Source: Halomonas chromatireducens | GTDB lineage: Bacteria; Pseudomonadota; Gammaproteobacteria; Pseudomonadales; Halomonadaceae | Assembly: GCF_001545155.1 (NCBI RefSeq) | Contig: NZ_CP014226.1 | Coordinates: forward strand, 1,383,126 to 1,404,654 | Length of the DNA stretch: 21,529 bases | Reading direction: 5' to 3' | Shown here: positions 1 through 16,853 of the stretch, one piece after another | How positions within the stretch are numbered: the stretch's first letter is position 1 | How the letters are laid out: each line of letters starts with the position of its first letter | The notes under the pieces: generated by a model | Databases searched by the model: none | What the model saw: the letters and a program-made list of their open reading frames with translations, nothing else | What the model was told of the DNA's origin: nothing | Made by a program: the position numbers and the translations under genes

Positions 1-1991
1 GCGTTCTTCGACATGAACACCTGCTCGATGGCGAACTCCCCGGGCCTGTGCAGCGCAATCAGCTCGCTGATGCCGGCATAGGCCTGGGCGAGACGCTGGG
101 CCAGGTCGTCGCCCTGCATGGCCCGACCGGCAATGCCGACCAAGGGCGCCGTCTCGTGCTGAATGAACTGCGGCTGCGCGCCCTGGACTTGCACGACGAT
201 CCAGCACTGGAAGTCCTGGATCTGCGCGGCTGTGGTCGGCAGCACTACCTGCACCTGCAGCTCGACCGCCTGCCCCACCTGCGCGAGATCTATCTGCCGT
301 GCCTGGCGGAGGGTGCCATCCTCCATCTCTTCAACTTGGATGTGCCGGCGTCCCTGACGGTCCATGGTCGTGTTCGCGAGATCGATGCGGACTGGCAGAA
401 GGGCACGCTGCGTCTTACGCATCGGCAGCGGAGCTGGGAGGGGGTGCAACTTCTGGGGCATGACGCCAAGCCGGACGACCTTGTCGATCCGCCACTGGCG
501 TTCCCTCTGAACGTCGTGCTGAGTTCGGAACTGCTCCAGGCGGCGACCATGGATGGTGCACTATGCCTGTCAGGGCAGGGGGAGTGGTATCTGGCGGATG
601 CCTCTGCGCTTGAACGCCTGGTGATCGATGGCCCCAGTGTCCTCAGAGTCAGCCGAGCACATGCACTGCGAAGCATGCAGATGTGCAAGCCTGCGCACTT
701 TGAAGGCACGCAATTGGACGCCTTGGCCAGGCTAGGGACCGGAGAAGCTCGGTGTAGCCTCAATGCGCCCGCTGCAGCTCAGTATTGCATGTCCTTCAAA
801 GGGGCTGCAGTGCTGCGTGGCAACATGCAAGCCCTGACGCTTGTGGACGAGTGGGGGGAGGTGCAGCTGCATACCCCGCGTCTTGAGCGTCTGGCACTTA
901 GCGGCGCTACCTCCCTAACTCTACACAACTGCGGGCATCTGGAGACCGTGAGTCTTCCCGAAGGATTAGCGATTGATTGCCACGGCACTGTGCCAACTCC
1001 ATTGCTGCATGTGGCGCGCTTTTTCATTGACGAGGCGACACTCAAGCAGGCGCTCAACCGCCTGGCGGCGGGCGAAAATGAGCTGCTGGACAGCGTGCTG
1101 ACCATGCTGCCCCAGCGTGCCGGTGCCGCCTTCCATGGCCTGACCTCTTTGCTACAGCTGGCAGAGCAGGGGCTGGATGCCCAGGCCCTATGGCACTGTC
1201 GCCGGATGATCGCCGCCCGGCAGATGATGCCTCGTCGGCGCCGCCAGTGTATCCAGCTTACCGATCAGGATTTGGCTCGTGCCGACGGTGCATGGCGCTG
1301 GGACCTGCCCCGCGACCGCGTTGATGAAGGCATTCTGGCGGACCTGCAACTCTGGGCGCTTTGCAGTCCGCATAGCACCGACGCTCAGACCTACCGAAAG
1401 TCCCTGGTTGCCAGCTGCAATGAAGGCCAGAAATTTCAGTGGATTGTGCGCTTTGGCAGTCGCCCCGATGCACTGTCGCCACTGCGGCAGTTGATGCTGG
1501 AAGTCCTGGTCAAGCAGCAGGCATGCGGCACGCTTTCGCTCTGTTTAGGCGGGCAGGACAACACGGTCAACCACCGCTATTTGGTGAGGATCATGAGTCA
1601 CGAGCCGCTGACGGCCGAACAGCGCAATGCTCTGCTTGGTGCCGTCAGCGAGGTGGCCCCCTGGGAGGAACTACCGCAGCTGGTCACCACACTGCTTCAG
1701 CGTTACCCGGGACCCGTGCGCGCTTTTTTGATAGCGCTTTCTCGTAATCCCGATGACTGGTTTCACGGAAGACTGCCTGGACGTGTTGGCGCCACTCGCA
1801 TACGACAGGCACGTTTACAGTTGACTCAGCTGGCGCTGATGCCTGGTGGATGGTCGGGAATGACAACAAATTCCAGATTGAATGAGCCACCAACTGCGGC
1901 GTCGGAAGCACAGGCTCAGGTGGCGAGGAATAGCGCTTTTGAGGATCCACTGGGCTCCTACCTGACACCTCCTACCCATATTCGTCGCTGA
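1..1991 (+). CDS. Large repeat-containing protein of unknown function (5' partial)
   Basis: The reading frame is open from the left edge of the window. A GTG at 48 could start it, but in-frame codons continue upstream without a stop and no clear ribosome binding site precedes it, so the true start probably lies outside. I do not recognise a named family. The N-terminal half (about residues 40-320 counted from the GTG) has irregular leucine-rich stretches such as LRALDLHDDPALEVLDL and LERLALSGATSLTL, resembling a leucine-rich or beta-solenoid fold. The C-terminal half looks helical, with a disordered-looking tail. No signal peptide or membrane segment is visible in the part seen. Only 14 nt separate it from the MoxR-like ATPase gene, so the two are surely co-transcribed. 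I infer a substrate-recognition or adaptor role for the ATPase/VWA pair, without direct evidence. Confidence 0.8.
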   Translation, partial: VLRHEHLLDGELPGPVQRNQLADAGIGLGETLGQVVALHGPTGNADQGRRLVLNELRLRALDLHDDPALEVLDLRGCGRQHYLHLQLDRLPHLREIYLPCLAEGAILHLFNLDVPASLTVHGRVREIDADWQKGTLRLTHRQRSWEGVQLLGHDAKPDDLVDPPLAFPLNVVLSSELLQAATMDGALCLSGQGEWYLADASALERLVIDGPSVLRVSRAHALRSMQMCKPAHFEGTQLDALARLGTGEARCSLNAPAAAQYCMSFKGAAVLRGNMQALTLVDEWGEVQLHTPRLERLALSGATSLTLHNCGHLETVSLPEGLAIDCHGTVPTPLLHVARFFIDEATLKQALNRLAAGENELLDSVLTMLPQRAGAAFHGLTSLLQLAEQGLDAQALWHCRRMIAARQMMPRRRRQCIQLTDQDLARADGAWRWDLPRDRVDEGILADLQLWALCSPHSTDAQTYRKSLVASCNEGQKFQWIVRFGSRPDALSPLRQLMLEVLVKQQACGTLSLCLGGQDNTVNHRYLVRIMSHEPLTAEQRNALLGAVSEVAPWEELPQLVTTLLQRYPGPVRAFLIALSRNPDDWFHGRLPGRVGATRIRQARLQLTQLALMPGGWSGMTTNSRLNEPPTAASEAQAQVARNSAFEDPLGSYLTPPTHIRR

Positions 1992-2005
1992 GCGGAGACA
2001 GACCC

Positions 2006-3196
2006 ATGATGCATGCTACTCCAGACCAGGCCATCACCCTGCTGACCCATCAGTTGGAACAACTGCACTTGCAGCCAGAAATGGCGGAGCTGTTGCCGCC
2101 CATTATGTTGTGGGGCCCCCCAGGCGTAGGCAAGAGCTCGGTGGTGCGTACTGTGGCCGAACGCCAGGACATTGAATTCATCGACATTCGACTGGCCCAG
2201 CGTGAGCCGGTGGATTTGCGCGGCCTGCCGGTGCCAGATCGTGAGCGTGGTGTAGTGGACTGGTTGCTGGCGGGCGAGTGGCCCCGCGATCCAGAAAGCC
2301 GCGGGATATTGCTCTTCGATGAGCTGACCGCCGCCGACCGAAGCCTGCAGGTGGCCGCGTATGAGCTGATTCTCGACCGCCGTCTGGGGGATCTGTATCG
2401 CTTACCGCCTGGTTGGCTGGTAGTGGGAGCCGGCAATCGCAGCGAGGACCGTGCCGTGGCGCAGTCCTTTTCCAGCGCGCTGGCCAATCGCTTCTGTCAT
2501 CTGAGCTTGGCACCTGATCTCGAGTCTTGGTCACGCTGGGCGGCAGGGGAGGGGCTGCATCCGGATGTGATCGCCTTTCTGCGTTTCCGGCCGGAGTGCT
2601 TCTTCGACATGGAGGGCAGCGTGGAGCAGGGCTGGCCCAGCCCGCGCAGCTGGGCACGGGTGGCGCAGTCTCTCGCGCATGGCCGGGCGCTGCCCGCCGG
2701 AGTACAGGCTCTGATGATTCATGGCCTGGTCGGCCAGGGCGCTGGGACTGAGTTTTTGGCTTTTCGCGAGTGGGCTCTCAAATTGCCGGATATCCCTTCC
2801 ATGCTTGCCGGCAAGACGCCCATTCAGATTCCTGAGCGGGCTGATCAGCGCTATGCCTTCTGTTCGGGCCTAGCCCATGCGCTATGGAAAGGGCTGGAGA
2901 TTGACGCACTTCATGAGGAGATCGCCCAGAAACGCCTGGCACGCTTCTTCGAGATCAGCCAGGCGCTGAGCGCGGACTTCGCCACCCTGGCGCTGATGGA
3001 CGCCATGCAGGGCGATACGGAAATGCTGCAGCAGACGCGCACGCTGGCACTGCTAGGCCATCCGGCCTTCGATGCCTGGAGCCGGCAGCATGGCGCAGTT
3101 TTCCATGAGCATCTCATGGCACAGATGGGCATCTCCCTGCCGGAGGCCGGTGCACAGGTACCGGTTGTGGACCTCTTCGGTGAGGAGGCGCCATGA
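2006..3196 (+). CDS. MoxR-like AAA+ ATPase
   Basis: A 396-residue cytoplasmic AAA+ ATPase. Walker A is GPPGVGKSS at residues 37-45, Walker B is ILLFDELT at 101-108, sensor 1 is GAGNR at 141-145, and SSALANRF at 156-163 fits the MoxR-type arginine-finger region. The C-terminal half is helical and less conserved. MoxR-family ATPases typically act as chaperones with a VWA-domain partner encoded next door, and such a partner follows here with a 4-nt ATGA overlap. The start is ATG 2006, preceded by CGGAGA at a normal distance. The second ATG at 2009 is also possible. Family assignment is firm. Substrate and pathway cannot be read from the sequence. Confidence 0.9.
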   Translation: MMHATPDQAITLLTHQLEQLHLQPEMAELLPPIMLWGPPGVGKSSVVRTVAERQDIEFIDIRLAQREPVDLRGLPVPDRERGVVDWLLAGEWPRDPESRGILLFDELTAADRSLQVAAYELILDRRLGDLYRLPPGWLVVGAGNRSEDRAVAQSFSSALANRFCHLSLAPDLESWSRWAAGEGLHPDVIAFLRFRPECFFDMEGSVEQGWPSPRSWARVAQSLAHGRALPAGVQALMIHGLVGQGAGTEFLAFREWALKLPDIPSMLAGKTPIQIPERADQRYAFCSGLAHALWKGLEIDALHEEIAQKRLARFFEISQALSADFATLALMDAMQGDTEMLQQTRTLALLGHPAFDAWSRQHGAVFHEHLMAQMGISLPEAGAQVPVVDLFGEEAP

Positions 3197-4515
3197 GTCG
3201 TCGCCCCCTCACCGAACGAGCAGGGAGCATGCGAACGCCCCCAGGGCAGCGTAGCCGTCGGCCAGCCCGAGAGCCGCGCGCTCCCAACGACCAGGAGCAG
3301 GCCCTCAAGCAGCGCATACAACGCCAGTGTGAAGCCGACCGTGCCCTGCTGATGGCGGCACAGCCCTTCACCGCACGGCTGCTGATGCAGCTCGCCATTG
3401 TGGCCGTGGTCGATGACCGTTTACCCACGGCAGGAACCGATGGCGAAAGTCTATTCGTCAATGCCAAGTTCATGGCGCGGCGAAGTGAGGAGGATCGCCG
3501 CTTCATTCTGGCTCACGAGGTCTGGCATTGTGCTCTCGGCCACCATCGTCGTCAGCTAGGGCGGGAGCCGGATACCTGGAATCGCGCCTGCGACTACGAA
3601 GTGAACAGCCTGCTTCGCGATGAGCTGGGCTACTGCCCCGCCGATGCGCTCTATCACCGTCGCTACCTCGGCCAATCCGCTGAGCAGATCTATGCCGACC
3701 TTTGCCAGCACCCGAGCCGAAGCGAGCAAGGGAGTGTTCTGGACGAACATGACATCACAACGCTCGCAACGCTGCCTGGCCAGGTGATGGACCCAGACTT
3801 CAACCCGAAGCCGGTCACTCCGGAAGGGGCACGAGCCTGGCAGCAGCGTCTGGTAGCCACCGCACAGCAATTCGAGCGTCAGCAAGGCAGCCTACCCGGT
3901 CATCTACAGACCCTAGTGGAGCGTCTGCGTCATCCTCAGGTGCCATGGCAGCAGGTATTGGCCAGCTTTATCCATCAATCACTTGGGGGTAATCGGCAAT
4001 GGTTGCCACCGGCACGACGGCACGTACATAGCGGCCTTTATCTACCTAGCCAACGGAGTCAAATACTTACTCTGGCGGTTGCCGTCGACACCAGCGGTAG
4101 CTGTCAGCGGGACCTGCCGCATTTTCTAAGCGAGCTCAAGGGCATTCTTGGCGCCTGCGATCGGGTCAGGCTGGATGTCATGGACTTCGACGCTTGCATT
4201 ACCCAGCGCCGAACGCTGCATGAAGGGCAGCTGCATGAGCTAGAGCACTGGCGTTGCCAGGGCGGGGGAGGCAGTGATATCCGCCCGGTCTTCACTGCCT
4301 TGGAGCAGGCGCCTCCCCAGGTGTTGGTGGCGCTGACAGATGGCTATATCCATACGCCTAGTCACACGCCAGGTTACCCGGTGATTTGGTGCCTAACTGA
4401 GGGAGGACGAGTGCCTGCTGGCTGGGGCCAGACGATTCCTCTGGAAGGTGGGTGTGTGCGGCCGGCGATGCTGGATGACCTATTGGATGTGATGCCGCCT
4501 ATGCGCCGAGGATAG
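3193..4515 (+). CDS. Metallopeptidase-like/VWA domain protein (DUF2201 type)
   Basis: A 440-residue protein with two parts. The N-terminal domain has the zinc-protease motif HEVWH at residues 108-112 followed by CALGHH, as in the putative metallopeptidase domain of DUF2201 proteins. The C-terminal domain is VWA-like: the MIDAS motif DTSGS is at 299-303, GGGSD at 358-362 and LTDG at 381-384. The residues needed for zinc and divalent-metal binding all appear present. The gene overlaps the MoxR-like gene by ATGA, and GAGGAGG lies just before the start, which suggests translational coupling and a 1:1 complex. The family commonly pairs with MoxR ATPases. Whether the HEXXH site is an active protease is not known from sequence. 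Confidence 0.88.
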   Translation: MSRRPLTERAGSMRTPPGQRSRRPAREPRAPNDQEQALKQRIQRQCEADRALLMAAQPFTARLLMQLAIVAVVDDRLPTAGTDGESLFVNAKFMARRSEEDRRFILAHEVWHCALGHHRRQLGREPDTWNRACDYEVNSLLRDELGYCPADALYHRRYLGQSAEQIYADLCQHPSRSEQGSVLDEHDITTLATLPGQVMDPDFNPKPVTPEGARAWQQRLVATAQQFERQQGSLPGHLQTLVERLRHPQVPWQQVLASFIHQSLGGNRQWLPPARRHVHSGLYLPSQRSQILTLAVAVDTSGSCQRDLPHFLSELKGILGACDRVRLDVMDFDACITQRRTLHEGQLHELEHWRCQGGGGSDIRPVFTALEQAPPQVLVALTDGYIHTPSHTPGYPVIWCLTEGGRVPAGWGQTIPLEGGCVRPAMLDDLLDVMPPMRRG

Positions 4516-4717
4516 GAGACAGATGGTGGTTCACGCACTCCCTGACAAGTCGCAAATATTCCCTTTTAATTCAATTGATTACACGGCTTTCATTATGGCG
4601 CCAGTGTTGTTTAGCTATGGTAATGCGTAGCTTTCGGAAAAAAAGGCTAAAGATAATTGGCTTTCAGCCGATATTTCTGTTCGTGGCTCTTGAGTCTAAA
4701 TGCCTGAGGGGGAATAG
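4516..4717 (+). other. Short intergenic gap at the left edge of the AT-rich block
   Basis: Base composition changes here from GC-rich to AT-rich. A short inverted repeat TTGGCT/AGCCGA (4657-4671, 3-nt loop) followed by a T-rich run could be a weak terminator for the MoxR/VWA operon, or lie in the leader of the next gene. AGGGGG at about 4707-4712 serves as the ribosome binding site of the gene at 4718. No clear promoter was found. Confidence 0.35.
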
Positions 4718-4954
4718 ATGGCGGCTCCGTTAATTGGTTGGAAAATTAAATGGTTGATATCATTGTCCTTGGTCGCACTGGGTTTTTATGCGGCTTTTTC
4801 TTTCGTTGATATGGTGCGCGAGATGCTGGAAGCAGCAGCAAGGTTATGGCCATTGCTTGCCTTGGCTGTAACGTTTTTTATTATGGGTAAAATTGTGAAA
4901 GCGCATGCCTTAAAAAGGCAGTCAAAAGCTGATGAAAGCAAGCAAGGAGATTAG
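4718..4954 (+). CDS. Small two-helix membrane protein, unknown function
   Basis: A 78-residue protein with two predicted membrane segments, about residues 10-30 (WLISLSLVALGFYAAFSFV) and 42-60 (LWPLLALAVTFFIMGKIV), and a basic, polar C-terminal tail. The ATG at 4718 is preceded by a purine-rich GAGGGGG. It matches no family that I recognise. It ends one base before the next gene, whose ribosome binding site lies inside its last codons, so the two form a small operon. It lies in AT-rich DNA upstream of the dynamin operon. Whether it belongs functionally to that system is unknown. Confidence 0.65.
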   Translation: MAAPLIGWKIKWLISLSLVALGFYAAFSFVDMVREMLEAAARLWPLLALAVTFFIMGKIVKAHALKRQSKADESKQGD

Positions 4955-4955
4955 C

Positions 4956-5417
4956 ATGAGCTTGGAGGTAGCTAAGCGGTCTGGGTTCGTGCTGAGAATG
5001 CTATCATTAATGGCGTTTTCGTGCATGATACTGTTTGCTGGAATTGTTGTTATTCAAAATGAAGAGCTAGGAAAGCTAGTTCCGCCAAGTACAGCTAGGA
5101 CGTTATCTATATTTTTTGCATACATAGTGGCCATGATAACATTTAATTATACTTTGGCGGCTAGAGGAAGAAATTTCATGGGATGGAAAAATGAAGCTCT
5201 GATAATGATTGGTTTTGTTATCGCTTTTGTTGGCATTTTTCTCCCCCATGCTTTTCCTGCTTCGCAAGTCATAGTCACAGAAAGTTGGGTTCCTTTTTCC
5301 TCCAAGGAGGTTGCTCATCTTAAACCTAACTGGGCTTATATGCCAGTATCATTTATCGCCGTCCCTTTTATTTATAAGGCTTGGTTGGGAATTAGAGCGA
5401 TGCCACTGTGGAAATAA
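4956..5417 (+). CDS. Small multi-pass membrane protein, unknown function
   Basis: I place the start at ATG 4956 because AAGGAG (4944-4949) sits 6 nt upstream of it. An upstream ATG at 4932 lies inside the previous gene and lacks such a site. The 153-residue product has four probable membrane segments: MLSLMAFSCMILFAGIVVI, a second around LSIFFAYIVAMITFNYTLA, a third around IMIGFVIAFVGIFL, and a fourth near the end around MPVSFIAVPFIYKAWL. A polar loop rich in Ser, Lys and Trp precedes the last segment. It does not resemble a family I can name. It is tandem with the gene at 4718 and separated from the dynamin gene by a 448-nt gap with its own promoter. Confidence 0.65.
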   Translation: MSLEVAKRSGFVLRMLSLMAFSCMILFAGIVVIQNEELGKLVPPSTARTLSIFFAYIVAMITFNYTLAARGRNFMGWKNEALIMIGFVIAFVGIFLPHAFPASQVIVTESWVPFSSKEVAHLKPNWAYMPVSFIAVPFIYKAWLGIRAMPLWK

Positions 5418-5865
5418 ACTGAAGGGTTTTGAAGTTAGCATAGTGGGTGTAAGGGGGGGGCGAGTTTTACTTGTAATAAATGAACTATGAATGATGCAAA
5501 GGGTTGAGTTAATGGTGCTTAAACTACCAAGGCACGATATTTGGAAAAGTAATAAAACAGGTGGGTGCCTGCTAAGGAGCCACCTTGGCCCCCGAGGCAA
5601 CGGTGAGTAAATGCTCATGTATTATCGTACACGCTGGAAGTCGGCTGCATAGAGGACGAGGCAATTTGCTAGGATACGCGAAAATTATCAATTTTAAAAT
5701 TACTAAACAGGTTTAAGAGCAATAATTCAGAGGCCATTGCGAGGCCTTATTCAGCGCGGTATGGTGGTGTATTCTTGGAAAAGTGTTGTGTCTGAGCTAT
5801 AGGATTTTATCTGATATAATGAAGGTTGAAAAATCAAACACCACTAGACAGGAAGGGAGTTGCAG
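5418..5865 (+). other. Gene-free AT-rich region upstream of the dynamin operon
   Basis: I see no convincing coding sequence. It contains a G run (5453-5460), a segment with nested complementary arms (TGCCT 5566-5570 with AGGCA 5596-5600, AAGG/CCTT inside; alternatively GGTGG 5560-5564 with CCACC 5581-5585), and a weak AGGCC/GGCCT dyad at 5731-5747. The right end carries the dynamin promoter and ribosome binding site. No known riboswitch consensus was matched by eye. Confidence 0.4.
5812..5820 (+). promoter_or_regulatory. Extended -10 promoter of the dynamin operon
   Basis: The sequence TGATATAAT is a perfect extended -10 element (TG, one base, TATAAT). No good -35 hexamer lies at 17 nt, which is normal for extended -10 promoters. 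It sits 45 nt before the dynamin start codon, in AT-rich DNA, and is the best promoter candidate for the three-gene operon. Confidence 0.6.
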
Positions 5866-8358
5866 ATGATATTGTCAGCGTTGCAAGATGAGATATCAAC
5901 CTTAATTCATAAGCAAATGAAGATGCTGGCTGAACTAAAAGATCAGAAAGCGATTTGGACCGAAGATAGAAACGGTCTTGCATTGAACCCATCACTCATT
6001 GATCAGCAGTTAGAAGCTTTGGTCAGTGATGGTGTAAAAGTAAAATCGCTTGAATCAACTATCGCAGTAATCGGGACGATGAAAGCGGGCAAGTCAACAA
6101 CAATTAACGCTTTAATTGGCGAAGAAGTATTGCCAAATCGTGTCACTGCAATGACTACACTGCCGACACTGATCAGGCACAAGCCTGGCCAAAAAGAACC
6201 TGAGCTTACTTTGCATAACGAGTCTGTCTTTCAGGATTTAGTTAATGAGGTTAATTCGGTAATAAAATCATCCAACGAGAAAGGTGTCGATTTAACAAAA
6301 GTACAAGAAGCTGTAAATACTATCTCTGATAGTGGGTCTAAAATAAAAAAAAGCTATGTTGGGAAGGATGAAATTCATAAAGCGTTGTTCTTGATTAATG
6401 ATACTTTTCGCCTTGCCGGCCACGAAAAAAATGGAATTGATTTAAGCGATTATCTCAAGCATTTCACAGACATCGGCAGCCTGCCAACGGTTGAGATTGA
6501 ATTCAAATGCTTAGCAAATAAACCGGAAGGCAGGCACCGCGGTTCACTAGCGCTACTTGATACACCCGGCCCTAATGAGGCTGGTCAGAGTGCTGTGCTC
6601 AAGCAGATACTTTCAGAGCAGATAGCAAAAAATGCATCAATGGTTTTGTTGGTAATGAATTATACGCAACTTAATACAGAACAGGATTCTGATATAAGGA
6701 GTCAGGTGAAAGGGATCAAGGAGGTAATTAAGGACCGCTCTTTTGTTGTGGTAAATAGATTTGATGAAAAGAAATATGGAGATCTTGATGAGGGCCAGAC
6801 AAAAAAAATTGCCTGCGAATTGCTGAATGACAGTATTGATGAAGAAAACTTCATTACTGAGTCTGAGGTATTTCCTGTCTCCTCGCATTATGCCTTCATG
6901 GTGGATAAAGTTAAGCAGCAAATTGCTGGCGGTGTTGATGTGAGAGGCTTTTTGGGAGAGGCGTCTAATCGTGACTTTCTTCAAGCGGCATTTGGCATGA
7001 TTGATGAAGAAGAAATTGATGAACTGAATCTCGATAGAATTGAAAAGCGAGCTGATAAGTTGTTTAAAAAGTCACGCTACGATGGATTTGTTGGCGATAT
7101 GCTGGAGAAGGCCTATATTAAGGCAGGCGAAAATAGTTTGCAAGTTTCACTTGCACGCCTTTCAGACAATGCAAGGAAGCTGGATCATTTTTCCACTGTT
7201 GTACGCGGCGGACTATCTCAAGAATTAGAAGAGCTTAAGAGTAGTATTGAGCGCACTAAAAAGCTGAGTGAAGATGTTGAGGTGGTCTATAACAAAGTAG
7301 CCACTGTAAAAGATAAGGGTGTAAAAGAGTACAGGAAAAAGGCTGACTTTTTACTTAACGAAAATGTTGACAATATAAAGAAGGCTATTAAAGAAGAGTT
7401 TACCAATAAAGAAAGAGATTTGAAGAGTGACCTGGAAGGCGAGTTAAATGTTAAATTAGATAGCAAGAAAAGCTTAAGTCGTGAAAAATATGCTCATAAG
7501 CGTGCAGGAAGAAGAGAGGCGATGGTGCTGGAAAGTGATATTAATATTTTGCACAATATGATAGACAAGCATACTAATAATGACGGAAAGGAGTTAGATT
7601 TTGGGAAGGATAAAGGAAAAGCTGTTGAGTTTGATAAAAAAGCACAAGAAATTATGAGCTCCATGTTTTCCACCATGGTTTCGAAGCTGCAAGTTGAGCT
7701 AAATACTCTTGAGGAAAAAACTAAAGCTCAAATTCAGGGCGAATTGTTCGGGAGAGTGGAAAGTTTATTCAAAGCGTATGAGGAGGAAATGCAGGAAAAG
7801 GGTTTTGATTTCGATGTCAGCTTCCTAGAAAATTTCTCCCTCGATATCTTGAATCAAAGTAAGATAGAGCCTGGTTCTCATCAAGCTATTCAACAGTACG
7901 ATGAAATGGTAACTAGAATAATCAAGAAAAATGTTCGGCGTGAAGGTTGGGTGCATGGTGTTCTAAAAGTCCTGAGCTTTGGCCTTAGAGATGATTTTGA
8001 AGAGACGATAGTTGATATTCAAGAGGGTGAAAAGCGATACAAAATTGCTTTGTCTGGCTATATAAGTCAGGCAGAAAAAATGGCAGATCAATTCTACAAA
8101 AATATAGATCAAAATCTTAATGAGCAATTTGAGGCCAAACTTATACCCGCAGTCGATGAGATTTTTGGAGAAATTATTGTGTCCATTAAAAGCATAGAGG
8201 GGGCGTTGGATCGCTCAAAAAAGCTACAAAGTAATGATGTGGCTGTGGTATCAGATATCAAATCATTCATGGATGATGCCAAGAAACTAAATTATTCGCT
8301 TTTGCAGCGTATTAAAACTGCGCGGAATGGCCTTGATTCTTTGGTGTCAGTCGACTAG
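5866..8358 (+). CDS. Dynamin-like GTPase, CrfC (YjdA)-like G domain
   Basis: The start is ATG 5866, with GGAAGGGAG ending 6 nt upstream. A TTG at 5860 directly abuts that site and is unlikely. The 830-residue product has a complete dynamin-type G domain: G1 GTMKAGKST at residues 70-78, a probable G2 threonine in MTTLPT near 97-101, G3 DTPGP at 232-236 and G4 NRFD at 297-300. The stretch around G1 through LPTLIRH and the LLDTPGPNEAGQ segment are, from memory, very close to E. coli CrfC/YjdA. The rest is long, charged and helical, with coiled-coil character at about 430-660 and a small hydrophobic patch WVHGVLKVLSFGL near 707-719 that could act as a membrane-inserting tip. Dynamins use GTP hydrolysis to remodel or tether membranes. 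It is co-transcribed with a partner gene and a phospholipase gene. Confidence 0.88.
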   Translation: MILSALQDEISTLIHKQMKMLAELKDQKAIWTEDRNGLALNPSLIDQQLEALVSDGVKVKSLESTIAVIGTMKAGKSTTINALIGEEVLPNRVTAMTTLPTLIRHKPGQKEPELTLHNESVFQDLVNEVNSVIKSSNEKGVDLTKVQEAVNTISDSGSKIKKSYVGKDEIHKALFLINDTFRLAGHEKNGIDLSDYLKHFTDIGSLPTVEIEFKCLANKPEGRHRGSLALLDTPGPNEAGQSAVLKQILSEQIAKNASMVLLVMNYTQLNTEQDSDIRSQVKGIKEVIKDRSFVVVNRFDEKKYGDLDEGQTKKIACELLNDSIDEENFITESEVFPVSSHYAFMVDKVKQQIAGGVDVRGFLGEASNRDFLQAAFGMIDEEEIDELNLDRIEKRADKLFKKSRYDGFVGDMLEKAYIKAGENSLQVSLARLSDNARKLDHFSTVVRGGLSQELEELKSSIERTKKLSEDVEVVYNKVATVKDKGVKEYRKKADFLLNENVDNIKKAIKEEFTNKERDLKSDLEGELNVKLDSKKSLSREKYAHKRAGRREAMVLESDINILHNMIDKHTNNDGKELDFGKDKGKAVEFDKKAQEIMSSMFSTMVSKLQVELNTLEEKTKAQIQGELFGRVESLFKAYEEEMQEKGFDFDVSFLENFSLDILNQSKIEPGSHQAIQQYDEMVTRIIKKNVRREGWVHGVLKVLSFGLRDDFEETIVDIQEGEKRYKIALSGYISQAEKMADQFYKNIDQNLNEQFEAKLIPAVDEIFGEIIVSIKSIEGALDRSKKLQSNDVAVVSDIKSFMDDAKKLNYSLLQRIKTARNGLDSLVSVD

Positions 8359-8369
8359 GTGAATTGGTA

Positions 8370-9299
8370 ATGATTGATGAAAAAAGTACTGTTGCTTTGC
8401 TAATAGATGATTATCCTCACCTTGAGGAAAAAGCTATTGTTGATTTTATCAATAACTTTTCTGTCATGGCCGATCATCTGAATAAAAAGCAAGAAATTGC
8501 AGATAGCCCATCCGCGCGTTTTTTTGACTGGATGTCTGGGCGAAATGTGAAAAGGCAGTTGTTGCTCGATAGAACTTTTGAGAGTGAGCTTGTTTTTGTC
8601 AGGGATTATATTGTTGAAAATGAAAAACGTCTAGTTAAAAATGACGATTTCATGGATGAAATTATGAGTGGTGTCAGCTTGCTGTCCGGGAAGTTGCGAG
8701 AGGTAGCCAATGAAACTTGTCAAATCAAGGAAAGTCTTGAGGAATTGCGCGAAACGGTCTGTCACATAGAAAGTTCTGTTGTGCAGCGTCTTGATTATCA
8801 AGAATTATACATAAATGCTCTATCTGAAAAAGAGCTGGCTCTCAGTATCTTTTCGAAAACGAACGACAGTCTGTCGCCGGAGCAAAGTCTGTGGCTGATG
8901 TTGACCCGTCTATGGTATGGTGATTTTGGTCGTTGGCTTAAAGCATCTGGCAAATCAAAAAGTAACTCCAAGGTGGTAAAAGAGACACTAGAGACCTTGA
9001 AGAACCAGTGCATGCTTATTATGTCTAAAAAGACAGGTCGCTCGAATGACGCTCTAATTGATCGCGACACGCTATATAAAAGCCTCATCTCTGATTTTGA
9101 ACCTGTTAAGGACGCACTCTGTCTTATGAGTGATCATCATTCTAACAAACTTGAATCAATGATTTATTCACTTAACAGCAATGTGGAGCTAAGGCAGTTT
9201 GAAGATAGCGATCTTCCATTTGTTTTTTCTAATATAAGTATCTTTCATGAAATGGCGAGTTTGCTTCAGTTAGGAGAAGATCATGCCACAACCAACTAA
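8370..9299 (+). CDS. Coiled-coil dynamin-partner protein, possibly YjcZ/RdcB-like
   Basis: ATG 8370 is chosen over an upstream TTG at 8364 because AGGTGA (8357-8362) is correctly spaced for it. The gene begins 11 nt after the dynamin stop codon. The 309-residue soluble product is mostly helical, with heptad-like content around residues 100-145 (LSGKLREVANETCQIKESL and onward) and the aromatic segment LWLMLTRLWYGDFGRWLK near 171-188. In E. coli the CrfC/YjdA dynamin gene is followed by yjcZ, whose product is a similar-sized partner. By position and size this protein may be the equivalent, but I cannot confirm homology by eye. No catalytic motif is apparent. It probably binds the dynamin or couples it to the phospholipase. 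Confidence 0.75.
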   Translation: MIDEKSTVALLIDDYPHLEEKAIVDFINNFSVMADHLNKKQEIADSPSARFFDWMSGRNVKRQLLLDRTFESELVFVRDYIVENEKRLVKNDDFMDEIMSGVSLLSGKLREVANETCQIKESLEELRETVCHIESSVVQRLDYQELYINALSEKELALSIFSKTNDSLSPEQSLWLMLTRLWYGDFGRWLKASGKSKSNSKVVKETLETLKNQCMLIMSKKTGRSNDALIDRDTLYKSLISDFEPVKDALCLMSDHHSNKLESMIYSLNSNVELRQFEDSDLPFVFSNISIFHEMASLLQLGEDHATTN

Positions 9300-10320
9300 A
9301 TTAGGGCTTGTCTTGTCTGGGGGTGGGGCAAAAGGCGCATACCAAGCAGGCGTGCTCCGTTATCTTGCAGAGATGAACATTCAGCCAGATGCTGTAGCCG
9401 GGGCTAGCATTGGATCTTTAAATGGGGCGGTAGTAGCCAATGCCGAGAATGTTAAGCAGGCGGCTGATTCTCTTGAGGTTGTTTGGCGAGAAATTGCGGA
9501 GAAATCACCTTTGAAGATGGACCCGCTTGCTTTTGTGGCGATTTTGCTAAAAATTTGTGTGGCAGCCTTTGGTGGAGCGCCGGGTAGGGTTTTCGCTATG
9601 AGCGCTCACCAGCTTGAGAAAATAGTTCCGGTAAAGTATCACAAGTATGTTTCTGATCCGGCCTTTTTTGACAACTCGCCCACCATTGATATCTTAACTC
9701 GCTATGCAGGCCTTGAAAATGATAGTGTAGGCTTGCCTTTCTGGGTTTCCGTCTATGAAAGTGAAGGAGCGATCAAGGACTTGGTTGGTACCTTGAGGGC
9801 GACCGTAGGCATTTCCGATTCAAAAGGTTCCATGTTCTTACCCATGCATTTGCTTTCGTCGGAAGACAAGCGTAAGGCATTGTTAGCGTCTTCTGCAATT
9901 CCGCTTGCTTTCGAGGCACAATTAATAAGTGGTAAAAAGTATTATGATGGCGGCTTGGGAGGTTGGAATACAGCTCAGGGCAATACTCCGGTTACCCCCT
10001 TGATTGTAAATGAAAAATGCAGTCACGTCATAGTGACACATTTAGACGATGGGAGTTTTTGGAATCGTAATTCTTTCCCGGGCACGACGTTTCTTGAAAT
10101 TCGACCCAAGAAAATATCACGCAACGGCCTGAAGGATATGCTTAATTTTGAAAAATCTACTTTGCTTGAATGGATGGAACAAGGCTACCATGATACCAGC
10201 GCTTGCATTGGGTCAGTCAAGGGCGGACTGGACGTCTTTAGTAAAAGCCAGGCTAGTCATGCTTCGCTAGAAAAGTCGCTCGGTGATATGGCAGATTCTT
10301 TGCAGTGGATGAAAAGGTAG
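9283..10320 (+). CDS. Patatin-like phospholipase
   Basis: A 345-residue patatin-family lipid acyl hydrolase with all the expected parts. The oxyanion-hole motif GGGAKG is at residues 13-18, the nucleophile elbow GASIGS at 40-45 (Ser42), and the catalytic aspartate lies in DGG at 222-224 (Asp222), preceded by ASSAIPLAF as is typical. A Ser-Asp dyad is therefore intact and the enzyme is probably active. No signal peptide is seen, so it should act from the cytoplasm on the inner membrane. TAGGAGA precedes ATG 9283, and the gene overlaps the coiled-coil gene by 17 nt, so expression is coupled. Patatin effectors occur in several bacterial immune systems such as CBASS (CapV). Here the neighbours are a dynamin and its partner, not a cyclase. 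Confidence 0.9.
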   Translation: MPQPTKLGLVLSGGGAKGAYQAGVLRYLAEMNIQPDAVAGASIGSLNGAVVANAENVKQAADSLEVVWREIAEKSPLKMDPLAFVAILLKICVAAFGGAPGRVFAMSAHQLEKIVPVKYHKYVSDPAFFDNSPTIDILTRYAGLENDSVGLPFWVSVYESEGAIKDLVGTLRATVGISDSKGSMFLPMHLLSSEDKRKALLASSAIPLAFEAQLISGKKYYDGGLGGWNTAQGNTPVTPLIVNEKCSHVIVTHLDDGSFWNRNSFPGTTFLEIRPKKISRNGLKDMLNFEKSTLLEWMEQGYHDTSACIGSVKGGLDVFSKSQASHASLEKSLGDMADSLQWMKR

Positions 10321-11413: not shown

Positions 11414-11846
11414 TATTGCTCCTCCTTGGCGAATATTTTGTGCTTTCCGATCGGCATAAAGAAGGCCGCCAGTTCCCAGAAGAAACAATCTGGTGGTGAC
11501 AAGCGGAGTCGTTGTAGAGATACACCCATGCCCCTCCGTAGTGAGTCGAGATGATGGTTCGGTCATATAGGCCGGAAGACGGACTTTTCGGCTGATAGCC
11601 CTCCAGGTAATCCAGCCGGTTCAGTTGCTCAGCATCGATTAGATAGACCTCGACATACGCCCCAGCGGAAGGCATCAGCAGGGCACCAGGAAAAGGACCC
11701 AGGTTGTATAGGGTGATAACGCTGAGGCGGTCGGGGCCAAGATATTTCGCCCCTTCGAGCAAGTGATGGTTGTGCAGGCCGGCCTTGAGCGTGCCGTATA
11801 CAGCCACCCGAGGTGCACGCGCAATGTCGCGTTGACGGTCATGCAT
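11400..11846 (-). CDS. Gamma-glutamylcyclotransferase-fold (AIG2/YtfP-like) protein
   Basis: A 148-residue protein. The start at ATG 11846 has GGAG about 9 nt upstream, and the family's N-terminal motif VAVYGTLKAG follows at residues 14-23. Further family features are a glycine-rich PGALL segment, AYVEVYLID at 63-71 and LDYLEGY at 78-84, where Glu82 is the probable catalytic acid. AWVYLY near the end is also typical. Small members of this fold cleave gamma-glutamyl or related amines to 5-oxoproline, but many are uncharacterised and the true substrate here is unknown. The C-terminal 25 or so residues are unusually Ser/Arg-rich and overlap the start of the hydrolase gene by 14 nt. It follows the CobT remnant on the same strand. 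Confidence 0.82.
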   Translation of the reverse strand: MHDRQRDIARAPRVAVYGTLKAGLHNHHLLEGAKYLGPDRLSVITLYNLGPFPGALLMPSAGAYVEVYLIDAEQLNRLDYLEGYQPKSPSSGLYDRTIISTHYGGAWVYLYNDSACHHQIVSSGNWRPSLCRSESTKYSPRRSNNVSH

Positions 11847-11959
11847 AGGCGTGCTCCGTCGCCGTGTAAACGCCAAGGCGTGAGCAGCTTGTCCAACCAT
11901 TTTGGGTGGCTTGCTGAGGGTGTACATGGCTGCTCAAGGATCGAAGCAGTATTCGCTTT

Positions 11960-12319
11960 TGCAGCAAACGCATTGCGCGCGGCATGGTAGAGCGCGGCCA
12001 TTGCGCTATCACTAGGCGCCGTGGTGTCCGGGTGGGCCAGGTTGCTCGCCATGCCCGGCAGGTGGCGTTGGGCCAGGGTTTCTACCCGAGCCCGCTCTAT
12101 GACGGCATACCAGCACCACTCGCCAGAAGAAAAGCGACCATCCTGCTCAGGGTCGTGCCAGCGCCGCCATGCGGCCAAGGCATCGGCTTCGCTGCGGCTA
12201 GCAGTATCGGGTGGCGCGACGGTGTCTAGGTGTTGGGGGGGGGAGCCGGCACCATAGGTACGTGTCCAAGCCGACACCAGCTCTCTGGTACGCCTGCTAT
12301 CAGTAGATGCCGGTGACAT
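11960..12319 (-). pseudogene. cobT: CobT remnant, N-terminal region only
   Basis: Directly after cobS, overlapping its 3' end by 20 nt, a frame opens at ATG 12319. About 120 residues resemble the N-terminal region of CobT, the cobaltochelatase VWA subunit. The clearest match is ERARVETLAQRHLPGMASNL at residues 75-94, against the CobT pattern of a Glu-Gln-Ala-Arg-Val-Glu-Ala stretch followed by MAGVAxNL. The acidic linker and the whole C-terminal VWA/MIDAS domain, several hundred residues in normal CobT, are absent. The same frame continues to 11675, but that part overlaps the cyclotransferase-like gene in another frame and looks non-homologous. I infer an internal deletion joining the cobT 5' end to the next gene. 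Confidence 0.65.
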
Positions 12320-13265
12320 GGGGAGCGCCTCGCAGCAATTCTGCATCGAAACAGCGTTGGTAAAGCTCGGCTACAAGGGGGCGTTCTGTCTCATCGCAGC
12401 GATTGACGAATGCCAGCCGCAAGGCATCTTGCGTGTCTTTGATAAGGCCAATGTTTTCCCCCCAGGATACCAGGGTCCGCAGGGAGAGCAGTGACGAGAG
12501 GTCACCTTGGGTGAATGCCTGCCGTGTGAGGCCGGCGAAGGTGACCATGCGCTCGATGGTCTCTGCATCGAGCGAAGGCAGGCGCGACTGGAGGATTTCA
12601 CGCTCTCGGTCGGCCGGCATGTAGCCAAGCTCTGTGACCACATGCCAACGGTCCATTTGCGCCTGATTAAGCGCTTGGGTGCCTGCATAGAGGCCGGTGG
12701 CATCGCCTTGGCCCGCGGTATTTGCCGTGGCAAACAGGCGAAATGCCGGGTGTGGTGTGATGACACGATTTTGATCAAGCAGCGTGAGCCGGCCCTGACT
12801 TTCGAGTAGGCGTTGGATGACGAACATTACATCGGGGCGACCCGCATCGTATTCGTCGAAAACGATTGCGACCGGCCGCTCAAGCGCCCAGACGAGGATG
12901 CCCGGGACGAACTCGGTGACCTGCTTGCCATCGCGTATCACTACCATATCCCGGCCTATCAGGTCGGCTCGCGTGATGTGGCCATCGAGGTTGATGCGTA
13001 TGCAAGGCCAGTTGAGCCGCGCCGCTACCTGCTCGATGTGGGATGACTTGCCACTGCCATGAGGGCCATGCAGGTAAACACGCCGATTGTGCGCGAAACC
13101 CATCAATATCGCTGTGGTGACGTCTGGCATGAAGCGAAATGCAGGGTCTGGATCCGGGACGTGCTCTTCAGGTTCACTGAAAGCAGGAACGGGCCACGGC
13201 AAGGGAAGCTTGAACGTATGGGCGGTATCGCAGAATGTATCTGGACTCGAAATGGCGTCAGTCAT
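12300..13265 (-). CDS. cobS: CobS-type AAA+ ATPase (aerobic cobaltochelatase subunit)
   Basis: A 321-residue AAA+ protein close to CobS over its whole length. Shared landmarks are PDPDPAFRF near 37-45, GFAHNRRVYLHG at 56-67, Walker A GPHGSGKSS at 67-75, HIEQVAARLNWPCIRINLD at 76-94, Walker B VAIVFDEYD at 132-140 followed by AGRPDVMFVIQRLLES, sensor 1 FATANT at 178-183, and ALNQAQMDRW at 198-207. CobS normally forms rings with CobT and drives cobalt insertion by CobN into hydrogenobyrinate a,c-diamide. No cobN is present in this window and the adjacent cobT is broken, so the protein may be an orphan or have been recruited to another job. The start at ATG 13265 has no strong ribosome binding site. 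Confidence 0.92.
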   Translation of the reverse strand: MTDAISSPDTFCDTAHTFKLPLPWPVPAFSEPEEHVPDPDPAFRFMPDVTTAILMGFAHNRRVYLHGPHGSGKSSHIEQVAARLNWPCIRINLDGHITRADLIGRDMVVIRDGKQVTEFVPGILVWALERPVAIVFDEYDAGRPDVMFVIQRLLESQGRLTLLDQNRVITPHPAFRLFATANTAGQGDATGLYAGTQALNQAQMDRWHVVTELGYMPADREREILQSRLPSLDAETIERMVTFAGLTRQAFTQGDLSSLLSLRTLVSWGENIGLIKDTQDALRLAFVNRCDETERPLVAELYQRCFDAELLRGAPHVTGIY

Positions 13266-13742: not shown

Positions 13743-13787
13743 ATTTGAGTTTTCTATTAGCGCCATGCTCAGTAAGGAGTGTTCTTC

Positions 13788-14987
13788 ATGACGGTTACGC
13801 TTGCGCCAGCTCAGTTGGCCCCTGATTTGCGGCTCTTGGTGTTGCTGGCGAGGTTGAACCTGTCTGAGGAGCAGTCTCGCGCTTCACTAGCTCTATGCGA
13901 GAGTATCGATGATTGGGGGAGCTTCACCAAGCGCGCTCAAGAACGCTTTATCCTGCCGCTGGTATACCGCCATTTGCGTCGACTGTCGCCCCCGTCCTTG
14001 CCTGAAGAGCAGTTGGAGCTAATGAAGCTGCATTCGCTCACTGTTCTACAGCATAATCTGAACGTGATGGCTGCCTTGCGAGACCTGGCCAAGGAGCTGC
14101 TGCACCCGCTCGAACTGCAACATGTGTTCTTCAAGGGGCCGACGCTGGCCGGGCGGTATTACGATGAACCAGCTATGCGCTTCTGCCAGGATATTGATGT
14201 GCTGGTCCCGCGTGAGCGGATGGCGGAGCTTCTGGGTGTCGCACTGCAGAATGGCTATACTCCCTTGGATCCCGCAGCGTTGTCGGATGACAGCACCAGC
14301 CTGGCCTTCGTGGCGCGGGTCCAGAAAGTCGTGACCCTCGCCTCACCCAGAAACGTGGCCATCGAGTTCCACCAGCGGATCGACAACATCGGCACGATCT
14401 ACGATTCCCGGCAGCTGTTGACACTGGCGGAACCCATGCGTATGGCCAACAATTATTTTTCCGTGATGCCGACTGCGGAACTGTTTGTCTATATTTGCTG
14501 GCACCATACCAAACACTACTGGTCGCACCTGCACTGGCTGGTCGATATGGACGCCATCCAGCGCCATCCGAGTTTCGACCTGGATGCCGTGCTTGCTTGC
14601 GCAGAACGGCGTAACCTGCGGACTACCGTGGAAGCTTCTCTAGAGCTGTTCAATGTATTGGCGACCCCCGGGCCATGGCGTGAGGAGGAATTGACTGAGC
14701 GTGGCAAGGACATGCTTGCCATGGCATTGAAAGCCATGCAGGGGGGCCATCAGGTCGAGCTGACCATGCGTCGGCAGAAAGTTACCCCTGATTTTTCCTT
14801 CAGCTGGCAGGCCAAACCCACTCAGTTGTTGCGTTGGAGATTGCTGGGCTGGACTCGCTTGTTCCGCCCCAGCTACGCTGACTATCAGGGCTGGCCGCTT
14901 CCGCCCGCGTGGCAATGGCTATATCGTGTTACCCGCCCGTTTCGTGAATCCTACGTTCGCCTGACCTCCGGCGATTCCCATAAATGA
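13788..14987 (+). CDS. Nucleotidyltransferase family protein (NTP_transf_5 type)
   Basis: The start is ATG 13788, 8 nt after AAGGAG. A GTG at 13779 overlaps that site and is unlikely. The 399-residue product carries the family signature of a polymerase-beta-like nucleotidyltransferase: FFKGPTLAGRYY at about residues 114-125 and DIDVLV at 135-140 (two metal-binding aspartates), with a further carboxylate in VAIEFHQRI near 193. The rest is helical. Proteins of this family are often encoded beside ABC exporters in polysaccharide or ribosomally made peptide clusters, but their substrates are mostly unknown. It is the first gene after the Fur-box-like site and is followed closely by an ABC exporter gene, so I infer an iron-regulated operon. 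Confidence 0.82.
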   Translation: MTVTLAPAQLAPDLRLLVLLARLNLSEEQSRASLALCESIDDWGSFTKRAQERFILPLVYRHLRRLSPPSLPEEQLELMKLHSLTVLQHNLNVMAALRDLAKELLHPLELQHVFFKGPTLAGRYYDEPAMRFCQDIDVLVPRERMAELLGVALQNGYTPLDPAALSDDSTSLAFVARVQKVVTLASPRNVAIEFHQRIDNIGTIYDSRQLLTLAEPMRMANNYFSVMPTAELFVYICWHHTKHYWSHLHWLVDMDAIQRHPSFDLDAVLACAERRNLRTTVEASLELFNVLATPGPWREEELTERGKDMLAMALKAMQGGHQVELTMRRQKVTPDFSFSWQAKPTQLLRWRLLGWTRLFRPSYADYQGWPLPPAWQWLYRVTRPFRESYVRLTSGDSHK

Positions 14988-14997
14988 ATATGGCTGA

Positions 14998-16839
14998 GTG
15001 CGGCTGCTCATGATTCAAACCGATAAGTTTTTCGCACCGGTGTTTTCATTGCGTCGCATTCTGCCGATGCTCTGGCAGAGTAGTCGTAAGTGGACGCTGC
15101 TCAGTACCCTACTGATGGCTCTGGAAGTGGCATTTGGGTTAGCGGTGCTCTACCTCCTCAAGCAGCTGGTGGACGTCGTCACCCAAATGCTGGGGAGTGC
15201 GGATACAGAAGGTGGGCTAACCCAGGTATTACTTTTCGTGGCCCTGACCGGTGCATGTACGGTGGCGTTCATCACTGCACGAGGGCTGTCTGGCCTCGCT
15301 CGCGAAGCACAGGGAATGTTGGTGGCTGACTTTGTTGACCGCGAAGTGCATTCGCGGGCAGTAAGGGCAGACCTGGCCTTTTATGAAAGTCCACAGTACC
15401 ACGATACTCTTGAGCGAGCGCGCCAATCAGGCAATCAGCGACCCGCTCAGGTGGTCAGTAACTTAATGATGTTGAGCAAGAACAGCCTGATGTTGGCGGC
15501 AGTGGTGATACTGATCATCACCATCAACTGGCTGTTGCTGCCCGTATTGTTGATAGCCATCGTGCCCGCGCTTCTGGTGCGAATCTATTTTACTCGATAC
15601 TTATATCAGTGGCAGCGGCGCAGGACACAGATGGAGCGCCGCGCCGGCTATCTTGACTGGCTGATGACTTCTGATATCAATGCCAAGGAGTTGCGTCTCA
15701 ATCAGTTGGGCGATTATCTGCGTAACCAATATTCCAAGTTGCGGGGAACGATTCGCAGAGAGAAGCTTGCCATCACCAAGCGGCGAACCATGGTTGAACT
15801 GGTAGTGGCCAGCATTGCCTCGGTTGCTTTCTTCGGCTCACTGGGCTTTCTCGCCTGGCAGACTGCGGAAGGTCGCAACAGTGTGGGCGACCTGGTGCTG
15901 TTCCTGTTGATTTTCCAGCGTGCCCAGTCAATGGGGCAGGAGCTGGTCCAGCAGCTTTCCAAGCTCTACGAGGATCATCTCTATATTGGCCTGCTATTCG
16001 AGTTTCTGGATATCCGCCCCTCGATCAGCGAGCCCGAGCACCCCGTGAAAGTGCCCGGTGTGCTTAGCTCAGGGGTCGCTTTCGAGAATGTCGGGTTCTC
16101 ATACCCTGGTACTGATATCCCGGTGTTGAGGGATATAAATTTGACGATCAGGCCCGGTCAGATAGTCGCCTTGGTAGGTGCGAATGGATCGGGAAAGACC
16201 TCGCTGATCAAACTGTTATGCCGGCTATATGATCCAACATCGGGTAGAATCACACTTGACGGTATCGATGTGCGAGAGTTTGGGGTCGAGGACTATCGCC
16301 GCGTTTTCAGCGTGATCTTCCAGGACTACACGCACTATGCCGCCACCGTCCGTGATAATATTCGTTTCGGCGATATTCGCGAGCCCGAGGACACGCCGGC
16401 AGTGAAGGCAGCGGCTATCAATGCTGGTGCGGCACCGTTCATCGATTCCCTCAAGATGCAGTACGATACTCCCTTGACCAGGATGTTCGATGGAGGGCAG
16501 GAGTTGAGTATCGGTCAGTGGCAGAAGATCGCCTTGGCACGAGCCTTCATGCACCGTTCCAATATTATTATCCTCGACGAACCGACCAGTGCGCTGGATC
16601 CGGGCGCAGAGTTCGAGCTTTTCGAGAATTTCCGCGAACGTATCGATCATCGTGCAGCTCTGGTCATCAGCCATCGTCTCTCCACGGTGAGAATGGCCGA
16701 CTATATTTATGTCATGGATAAAGGGCAGATCTGCGAATCCGGCACCCATGATGAGCTGATCAGGCAGCAAGGGATCTACTGCGAACTGTTCAAGCGCCAG
16801 GCACATCACTATCGGGAAGTCGATGCCGAAACTCACTGA
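14998..16839 (+). CDS. ABC exporter with fused membrane and ATPase domains
   Basis: A 613-residue half-size exporter counted from GTG 14998. ATG 15010 is an equally possible start, since neither has a strong ribosome binding site. The membrane domain covers roughly residues 30-330, with hydrophobic segments near 34-56, 78-97, 165-198 and 266-310. The ATPase domain is complete: Walker A GANGSGKTS at 394-402, Q-loop glutamine at 442, signature LSIGQ at 503-507, Walker B IIILDE at 523-528 and the switch histidine in ISHRLS at 559. The stretch around FQDYTHYAATVRDNI resembles exporters found in peptide natural-product clusters as well as lipid exporters. It should work as a homodimer in the inner membrane. 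It starts 10 nt after the nucleotidyltransferase gene and ends 14 nt before the polymerase-like gene. Confidence 0.88.
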   Translation: MRLLMIQTDKFFAPVFSLRRILPMLWQSSRKWTLLSTLLMALEVAFGLAVLYLLKQLVDVVTQMLGSADTEGGLTQVLLFVALTGACTVAFITARGLSGLAREAQGMLVADFVDREVHSRAVRADLAFYESPQYHDTLERARQSGNQRPAQVVSNLMMLSKNSLMLAAVVILIITINWLLLPVLLIAIVPALLVRIYFTRYLYQWQRRRTQMERRAGYLDWLMTSDINAKELRLNQLGDYLRNQYSKLRGTIRREKLAITKRRTMVELVVASIASVAFFGSLGFLAWQTAEGRNSVGDLVLFLLIFQRAQSMGQELVQQLSKLYEDHLYIGLLFEFLDIRPSISEPEHPVKVPGVLSSGVAFENVGFSYPGTDIPVLRDINLTIRPGQIVALVGANGSGKTSLIKLLCRLYDPTSGRITLDGIDVREFGVEDYRRVFSVIFQDYTHYAATVRDNIRFGDIREPEDTPAVKAAAINAGAAPFIDSLKMQYDTPLTRMFDGGQELSIGQWQKIALARAFMHRSNIIILDEPTSALDPGAEFELFENFRERIDHRAALVISHRLSTVRMADYIYVMDKGQICESGTHDELIRQQGIYCELFKRQAHHYREVDAETH

Positions 16840-16853
16840 GCGCACTGGCTGGC

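Follow-up and report, generated by a model that had tools for sequence, protein, structure and literature searches.

The window considered here, that is, the whole stretch of 21,529 nucleotides of Halomonas chromatireducens contig NZ_CP014226.1 that was analyzed, carries three adjacent genes encoding a dynamin-like GTPase related to RdcA (also named CrfC or YjdA), a protein of the RdcB (YjcZ) family and a patatin-like phospholipase (Table 1). These are known protein families in an undescribed combination. The arrangement, designated hereafter as the triplet, is not due to chance, as 12 further aligned loci share its gene order.

The initial annotation of this DNA had proposed three intact and coupled genes, placed behind a single extended -10 promoter in AT-rich DNA unlike its flanks. 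Genes and coupling stand: the motifs are intact, an 11-nucleotide gap separates the dynamin and partner open reading frames (ORFs), and the partner and patatin ORFs overlap. Longer readings from alternative starts exist for the dynamin (from 5860) and the partner (from 8364); the protein lengths retained are those of database entries P0151, P0001 and P0031, respectively. The base composition was also correctly described, with a GC content (1-kb windows) of 0.38-0.47 across 4.5-11 kb, compared to 0.60-0.64 in the left flank and 0.50-0.64 in the right flank. As for the promoter, the motif TGATATAAT is present, but a scan for two-hexamer consensus promoters listed none with its hexamer, so that the 'one promoter' is a motif only. 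Repeats in the triplet region are limited to short, chance-like pairs.

Table 1. Position of the triplet genes and of neighboring features in the window
Feature	Position	Strand	Remarks
Dynamin-like GTPase, RdcA/CrfC-related	5866..8358	+	830 amino acids (ATG start)
RdcB (YjcZ)-family partner, predicted coiled coil	8370..9299	+	309 amino acids (ATG start)
Patatin-like phospholipase	9283..10320	+	345 amino acids; Ser42/Asp222 dyad (ATG start)
Partner/patatin gene overlap	9283..9299	+	17 nucleotides; ORF coordinates
Extended -10-like motif TGATATAAT	5812..5820	+	Sequence motif upstream of the operon; putative promoter
Two small upstream ORFs	4718-4954, 4932-5417		No Pfam family over cut-off
Block left of the triplet	48-4515		647-amino-acid protein without family over cut-off, AAA ATPase, DUF2201 metallopeptidase/VWA (von Willebrand factor A) protein
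ATPase/VWA module right of the triplet	11675-13265	-	CobS/CobT-like AAA-VWA pair; CobT match just under cut-off
Polysaccharide-like cluster	13779-18218		PF14907 nucleotidyltransferase, ABC transporter and O-antigen ligase (Wzy_C) genes

Protein families and coupling of the triplet

The dynamin has intact GTPase motifs (GTMKAGKS at residues 70-77, DTPG at 232-235 and NRFD at 297-300) and scores 66 bits against Pfam Dynamin_N, above the cut-off. Against the NCBIfam CrfC model NF007368 it reaches 245 bits over residues 12-809 (numbered from a TTG start), the equivalog cut-off being 1146 bits. Judged by these scores, it is a distant RdcA/CrfC homologue that lies outside the equivalog, and its description as a CrfC-like dynamin with an intact G domain was accurate. 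Its AlphaFold2 model (predicted local distance difference test (pLDDT) 78.7, predicted TM-score 0.60) gave best Foldseek E-values with BDLP (2j69), SynDLP, IniA and mitofusins, at low whole-chain TM-scores (0.2-0.3). A second match to the protein in its own genome was not found at E<=0.001.

The probable coiled-coil partner announced by the initial annotation can now be assigned to a family. Its direct score against YjcZ (PF13990), 20.4 bits, is under the cut-off of 27, but profile-profile comparison by hhalign with aligned RdcB proteins from enterobacteria, Methylococcales and Synergistaceae gave a probability of 99.2%. Members of that alignment themselves range in PF13990 score from 235 bits (E. 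coli island) through 159 (Synergistaceae) to 114 (Methylobacter). On this comparison, the window protein is a divergent RdcB/YjcZ. AlphaFold2 predicts a single long helix of about 105 residues (58-162), in line with a coiled coil, at a mean pLDDT of only 66.5; the model was judged too uncertain for a fold search, and the partner profile retrieved only weak matches among solved structures, mostly coiled-coil proteins.

The patatin deserves the term 'intact' that it had been given: it scores 92 bits against Pfam Patatin, above the cut-off, and has GGGAKG at residues 13-18, GASIG with Ser42, and DGG with Asp222. It thus carries the three motifs of patatin-like phospholipases (GGGxxG, GxSxG and DGG), by which activity is predicted, and the serine and aspartate motif columns are invariant across an alignment of 23 patatins. 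A hydropathy plot places a hydrophobic segment at residues 81-100.

Coupling and divergence were compared over 13 loci, window included. These were selected as triplets and their gene starts were set by us, so that the counts are descriptive and are no test of gene order. RdcB and patatin genes overlap by 4-41 nucleotides in 13 of 13 loci. The junction between dynamin and RdcB measures -4 to +11 nucleotides in 11; in two Methylococcales about 600 nucleotides lie between the two genes. Both catalytic motifs of the patatin are present in all 13, and exact GTPase motifs in 12, the exception being Nostoc with its deviating P-loop and G4 motifs. Protein distances are correlated (Spearman) at 0.83 for dynamin and RdcB, 0.70 for dynamin and patatin, and 0.62 for RdcB and patatin, values reached in none of 5000 permutations each; once a locus with a tandem dynamin is left out they become 0.82, 0.73 and 0.60 (0, 1 and 0 of 5000 permutations). 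A weaker sign is that 19 of 45 close dynamin clusters share the size of their longest contig with a close patatin cluster.

Distribution and mobility

Within its genus the triplet is specific to the strain. The dynamin occurs in 1 of 90 genus genomes and the DUF2201 gene on the left in 1 of 89, each time the window's own, while the LysR gene to the right of position 18200 is present in 88 of 89; the triplet therefore lies in strain-variable DNA. Close DNA similarity (78-82%) to four genus relatives resumes at 18200, and weaker matches (66-69%) are found at 13.9-16.8 kb, in transporter and polysaccharide genes, in two of these four. An ordinary core gene set, syntenic in all relatives, is thereby excluded. 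The remaining variable DNA holds two ATPase/VWA modules, of which the left block presumably resembles MoxR-VWA systems, and the polysaccharide-like cluster (Table 1).

Nor is the triplet private to this strain, as it is present in several phyla. The three genes occur, in order, in Pseudomonas, Alcanivoracaceae, Methylococcales, Synergistaceae, Nostoc and E. coli. A scan of GTDB contigs by the dynamin alone, which used two peptide patterns and reaches only dynamins bearing them, returned nine loci, seven of which hold all three genes in order: Pseudomonas mendocina, P. matsuisoli, a metagenome-assembled genome (MAG) of Alcanivoracaceae, three Methylococcales and a Synergistaceae MAG. In one of the Methylococcales (L006) the dynamin is split over two frames. 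In the Synergistaceae MAG (L009, 1290-8390) the dynamin gene preceding RdcB and patatin fuses two complete GTPases in tandem (1688 amino acids). The other two loci are a Brasilonema locus with a degenerate dynamin and a patatin, and a 21-kb locus of a Bacillota MAG whose dynamin has neither RdcB nor patatin.

Among species of the window's class the triplet is rare. Dynamin and RdcB were each found in 1 of 369 genomes, the window's own, in a sample where few candidates were scored per genome. The patatin profile matched in 4 of the 369; the other three matches cover the N-terminal part only, and their loci, of about 3 kb, contain neither dynamin nor RdcB. In the family of P. mendocina, 5 of 378 genomes have the dynamin, always within a triplet; the five include P. 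mendocina and P. matsuisoli, already counted among the seven.

In E. coli the triplet is widespread. According to the initial annotation this species has a dynamin and a partner only, which is incorrect, because 2426 of 5426 complete RefSeq genomes carry, besides the core pair rdcA-rdcB (5354 genomes), a dynamin-RdcB-patatin island triplet (at least 80% of the query covered); any part of it is found in 2596. In RefSeq the three genes of the island bear the names 'dynamin family', 'diguanylate cyclase regulator RdcB family' and 'patatin-like phospholipase family'. Eight contexts were opened among the matches listed, one on a plasmid and seven on chromosomes at four sites. In all eight the triplet stands between a GTPase-family gene, which we take to be YeeP-like, and a block of DUF932, antirestriction, JAB/RadC, DUF987 and cbeA genes. 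An Ag43/Cah adhesin gene lies beside it in three, two of which are near-identical islands. Insertion sequences of the IS66 or IS21 type lie within 4 of the 40 matches listed (H37, H46, H50 and H52).

Mutation clusters have been reported in E. coli ATCC 25922 in crfC (122), rssA (75), yeeP (10) and yjcZ (3) (PMC7696260). The families named are the four of the island slot, and the clusters could reflect reads of an island triplet that were placed on core genes.

Plasmid records matched the dynamin in 39 cases and the patatin, at a stricter limit, in 36. Four of seven plasmid loci opened are triplets (L011, L012, L013 and L040); the others are a core-type pair in Citrobacter (L014), a truncated dynamin (L041) and an RdcB-patatin pair without dynamin in Aliarcobacter (L039). 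There (4330-8020), the pair is preceded by a 161-residue protein, whose C-terminal part has a hydrophobic stretch, and by a 397-residue protein. Since these two proteins occupy the place of the GTPase, the locus suggests that RdcB-patatin can couple to another front end. A phage-borne module, finally, was ruled out: neither dynamin nor patatin matched any of 50,697 phage records, and when viral contigs were scanned with the dynamin alignment, none of the 51 pattern matches could be confirmed.

Possible roles of the triplet

The genes of the triplet stand in order and are coupled, their catalytic motifs are intact, the three proteins diverge in parallel, carriage is mobile, and defense genes are found beside some copies. 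On these grounds we think it rather probable that the triplet is a mobile membrane-effector module of three proteins, most likely directed against phages and acting by abortive infection. The RdcA-like dynamin would serve as sensor and switch and would bind RdcB, a coiled-coil adaptor, with the patatin as a cytoplasmic effector. Infection, perceived as a membrane disturbance or a fall in GTP, would bring the dynamin to a nucleotide-free output state; the dynamin would then, via RdcB, recruit or release the patatin at the inner membrane, where cleavage of phospholipids would stop growth or kill the cell. We infer the protein contacts, the trigger, the phospholipase activity and defense itself; a contact of RdcA with RdcB is known from the E. 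coli core pair alone.

The direction of the switch merits attention, as the initial annotation had suggested a GTP-gated effector. In E. coli, RdcA K82A, which is presumed not to bind GTP, is reported to be fully functional, T103D not, and the authors regard GTP as an inhibitor (PMC6510439). These residues align with K76 and T97 of the window dynamin. Gating by GTP may therefore be inverted, loss of GTP, or contact of the dynamin with the membrane, switching the complex on and the patatin attacking the inner membrane. If this is true, replacing the P-loop lysine (K76A, the counterpart of RdcA K82A) should give an active or toxic protein rather than a dead one.

Evidence for defense comes from the neighbors. 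PADLOC models were run on 40 neighbors at nine loci, and a strong known or candidate defense system is near five of the nine, one of these five being the Aliarcobacter pair without dynamin. In the Alcanivoracaceae MAG (L004) the triplet begins 81 nucleotides after a type IIG restriction-modification gene (878 bits), itself preceded by two DrmD-like helicase ORFs, and ends 47 nucleotides before ZorA-ZorB-ZorE of Zorya II (640, 329 and 436 bits). In P. matsuisoli (L003) a WYL regulator precedes the triplet, which is followed by HsdR (type I restriction, 915 bits), an AbiLi-like ATPase (244) and HsdM (734). Of two other Pseudomonadaceae loci, L053 contains near the triplet a WYL regulator and a GmrSD pair that exceeds the Pfam cut-offs, and L054 contains the PADLOC candidate PDC-M41 A/B, an AAA protein scoring 152 bits against IetA, and two WYL regulators. 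In Aliarcobacter, SduA (Shedu, 300 bits) is about 3.6 kb from RdcB, with integrases downstream.

Other observations weigh against a defense role. The scanned neighbors were mostly chosen by eye from translations, without a background rate, and the scans covered loci other than L007, L008 and L040. Ten neighbors in the window gave no convincing defense gene (best score 17.8 bits); L006 gave a WYL regulator only, L002 nothing beyond a helicase that scores 117 bits against GajB, and the single neighbor scanned at L055 no match. The three window proteins have no convincing match among the PADLOC and NCBIfam defense models, the best being LeoBC at 33.9 bits. By RefSeq names, none of the eight E. 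coli contexts contains a named anti-phage system in the stretch shown; they hold only CbeA/CbtA toxin-antitoxin and antirestriction genes. Such slots hold mobile-island cargo, which is compatible with defense without demonstrating it. In Aliarcobacter no recognizable GTPase stands at the RdcB-patatin pair, the 397-residue protein having no Pfam match. As for the correlated distances, on sequence grounds they are a mark of common descent of the unit, not of protein contact. The defense role first put forward is therefore backed by the neighbors of some triplets, but not by those of the window or of the eight E. coli contexts.

The best-studied homologues also point elsewhere. RdcA and RdcB are reported to activate the diguanylate cyclase DgcE through its MASE1 domain, and thus to act in cyclic di-GMP signaling (PMC6510439). 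The triplet could accordingly be a regulator of cyclic di-GMP and surface lifestyle, with a diguanylate cyclase switched on by RdcA-RdcB and a patatin that adjusts either the membrane or this cyclase. The full-length homology to RdcA and the homology to RdcB speak for this explanation, as do the adhesin genes in three of the eight E. coli contexts, an EAL-domain gene a few kb from the triplet in one of them, and the MASE1 proteins of two Methylococcales triplet genomes and of E. coli (one). Yet MASE1 (PF05231) has no match in the window's genome, in a search confined to this domain that was positive in the E. coli control; nor was it found in four of the six further genomes with a triplet, namely those of P. 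mendocina and P. matsuisoli and two possibly incomplete MAGs. Because MASE1 was not found in several triplet genomes, the cyclase target does not carry over generally. With the sporadic, mobile distribution and the restriction and Zorya neighbors counted as well, this explanation appears unlikely; we would rather expect the natural output of the triplet to be the patatin encoded beside RdcB.

Mobility and rarity likewise bear on membrane maintenance, in which the dynamin would sense or seal damaged membrane and the patatin remove or remodel lipids, for stress survival and with no specific phage role. The folds that match best belong to bacterial dynamins and mitofusins, among them several that act on membranes, and the hydrophobic segment of the patatin would fit. 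Such a housekeeping task is hard to reconcile with a triplet so rare among relatives (1 of 90 genus genomes, 1 of 369 class genomes and 5 of 378 genomes from the family of P. mendocina), carried by plasmids and islands, and broken by an insertion sequence in 4 of the 40 matches listed for E. coli; RdcA, moreover, is reported to be soluble (PMC6510439). We hold it to be quite improbable.

The same plasmids and islands, the latter with toxin-antitoxin and antirestriction genes, raise the idea of a module for addiction or competition between elements, with the patatin as a toxin restrained by dynamin and RdcB. However, Aliarcobacter has RdcB-patatin without the dynamin, and 4 kb with a multi-domain GTPase would be unusual for an addiction pair. 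There is very little chance, in our view, that this is the function.

Comparison with known systems

Bacterial immunity offers precedents for both enzymes: the patatin CapV in the cyclic oligonucleotide-based anti-phage signaling system (CBASS), and the dynamins DynA and Eleos. The Ser-Asp dyad of the window patatin is common to CapV and to DS-2, but scores against the respective models rule out membership in RssA, CBASS (lipase model 23.5 bits, cut-off 200) or DS-2 (20.2 bits, cut-off 400). Among 15 flanking ORFs, Pfam recognized no CD-NTase (cGAS/DncV-like nucleotidyltransferase); the PF14907 nucleotidyltransferase 3.4 kb downstream belongs to the polysaccharide-like cluster. Eleos (LeoA-LeoBC) consists of two dynamins, as a pair or a fusion, unlike the window, which has one dynamin with RdcB and patatin. 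Its PADLOC model LeoBC matched only partially and marginally, and with no second dynamin in the genome, Eleos too was excluded.

No description of dynamin-RdcB-patatin as a system was found in open-licence main texts, in agreement with the initial annotation, which knew of no name for it; a description elsewhere is possible. The main texts of papers that deal with the DefenseFinder category 'Dynamins' have no patatin (PMC12629846, PMC12595487, PMC11811056, PMC12926258, PMC10855318, PMC12757443); in one of them, the predicted dynamins of an island were inactive against the phages tested (PMC12595487). That of the DefensePredictor paper mentions neither dynamin nor patatin (PMC13092281). A unit that 2426 of 5426 complete E. 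coli genomes share with bacteria of other phyla is annotated, with no function found in print.

Close to the window triplet in organization are those on islands and plasmids of E. coli, Klebsiella and Enterobacter, which have the same three genes, order and coupling; two of them (L011 and L012) are 24-25% identical to it in the dynamin, 18-19% in RdcB and 37-39% in the patatin. The E. coli core pair RdcA-RdcB shares two protein families in the same order, its genes overlapping by 4 nucleotides; the window matches it by having RdcB in the next gene, and differs in its RdcA score. In contrast to the window, no patatin accompanies the two core loci opened (Citrobacter L014 and E. coli L043), whereas every RdcB locus opened outside Enterobacteriaceae carries one. 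In a dynamin tree (45 rows, without three Pseudomonas loci, drawn with a midpoint root and subject to long-branch warnings), the core pair falls among patatin-bearing branches, from which a loss of the patatin in the core pair seems plausible. Because the core branch is long, and a root placed there would make the core pair a sister group, domestication is proposed with caution.

Taken as a whole, the idea of a new immune system, in which a dynamin fires a phospholipase via RdcB when GTP falls and of which core RdcA-RdcB is a patatin-less, domesticated relative, is one that we put forward tentatively and with some doubt. If the triplet is immune, a dynamin-gated phospholipase joins the effectors of abortive infection, and a core second-messenger regulator becomes tied to mobile defense, so that the role of RdcB and that of GTP in RdcA could be approached from a second side.

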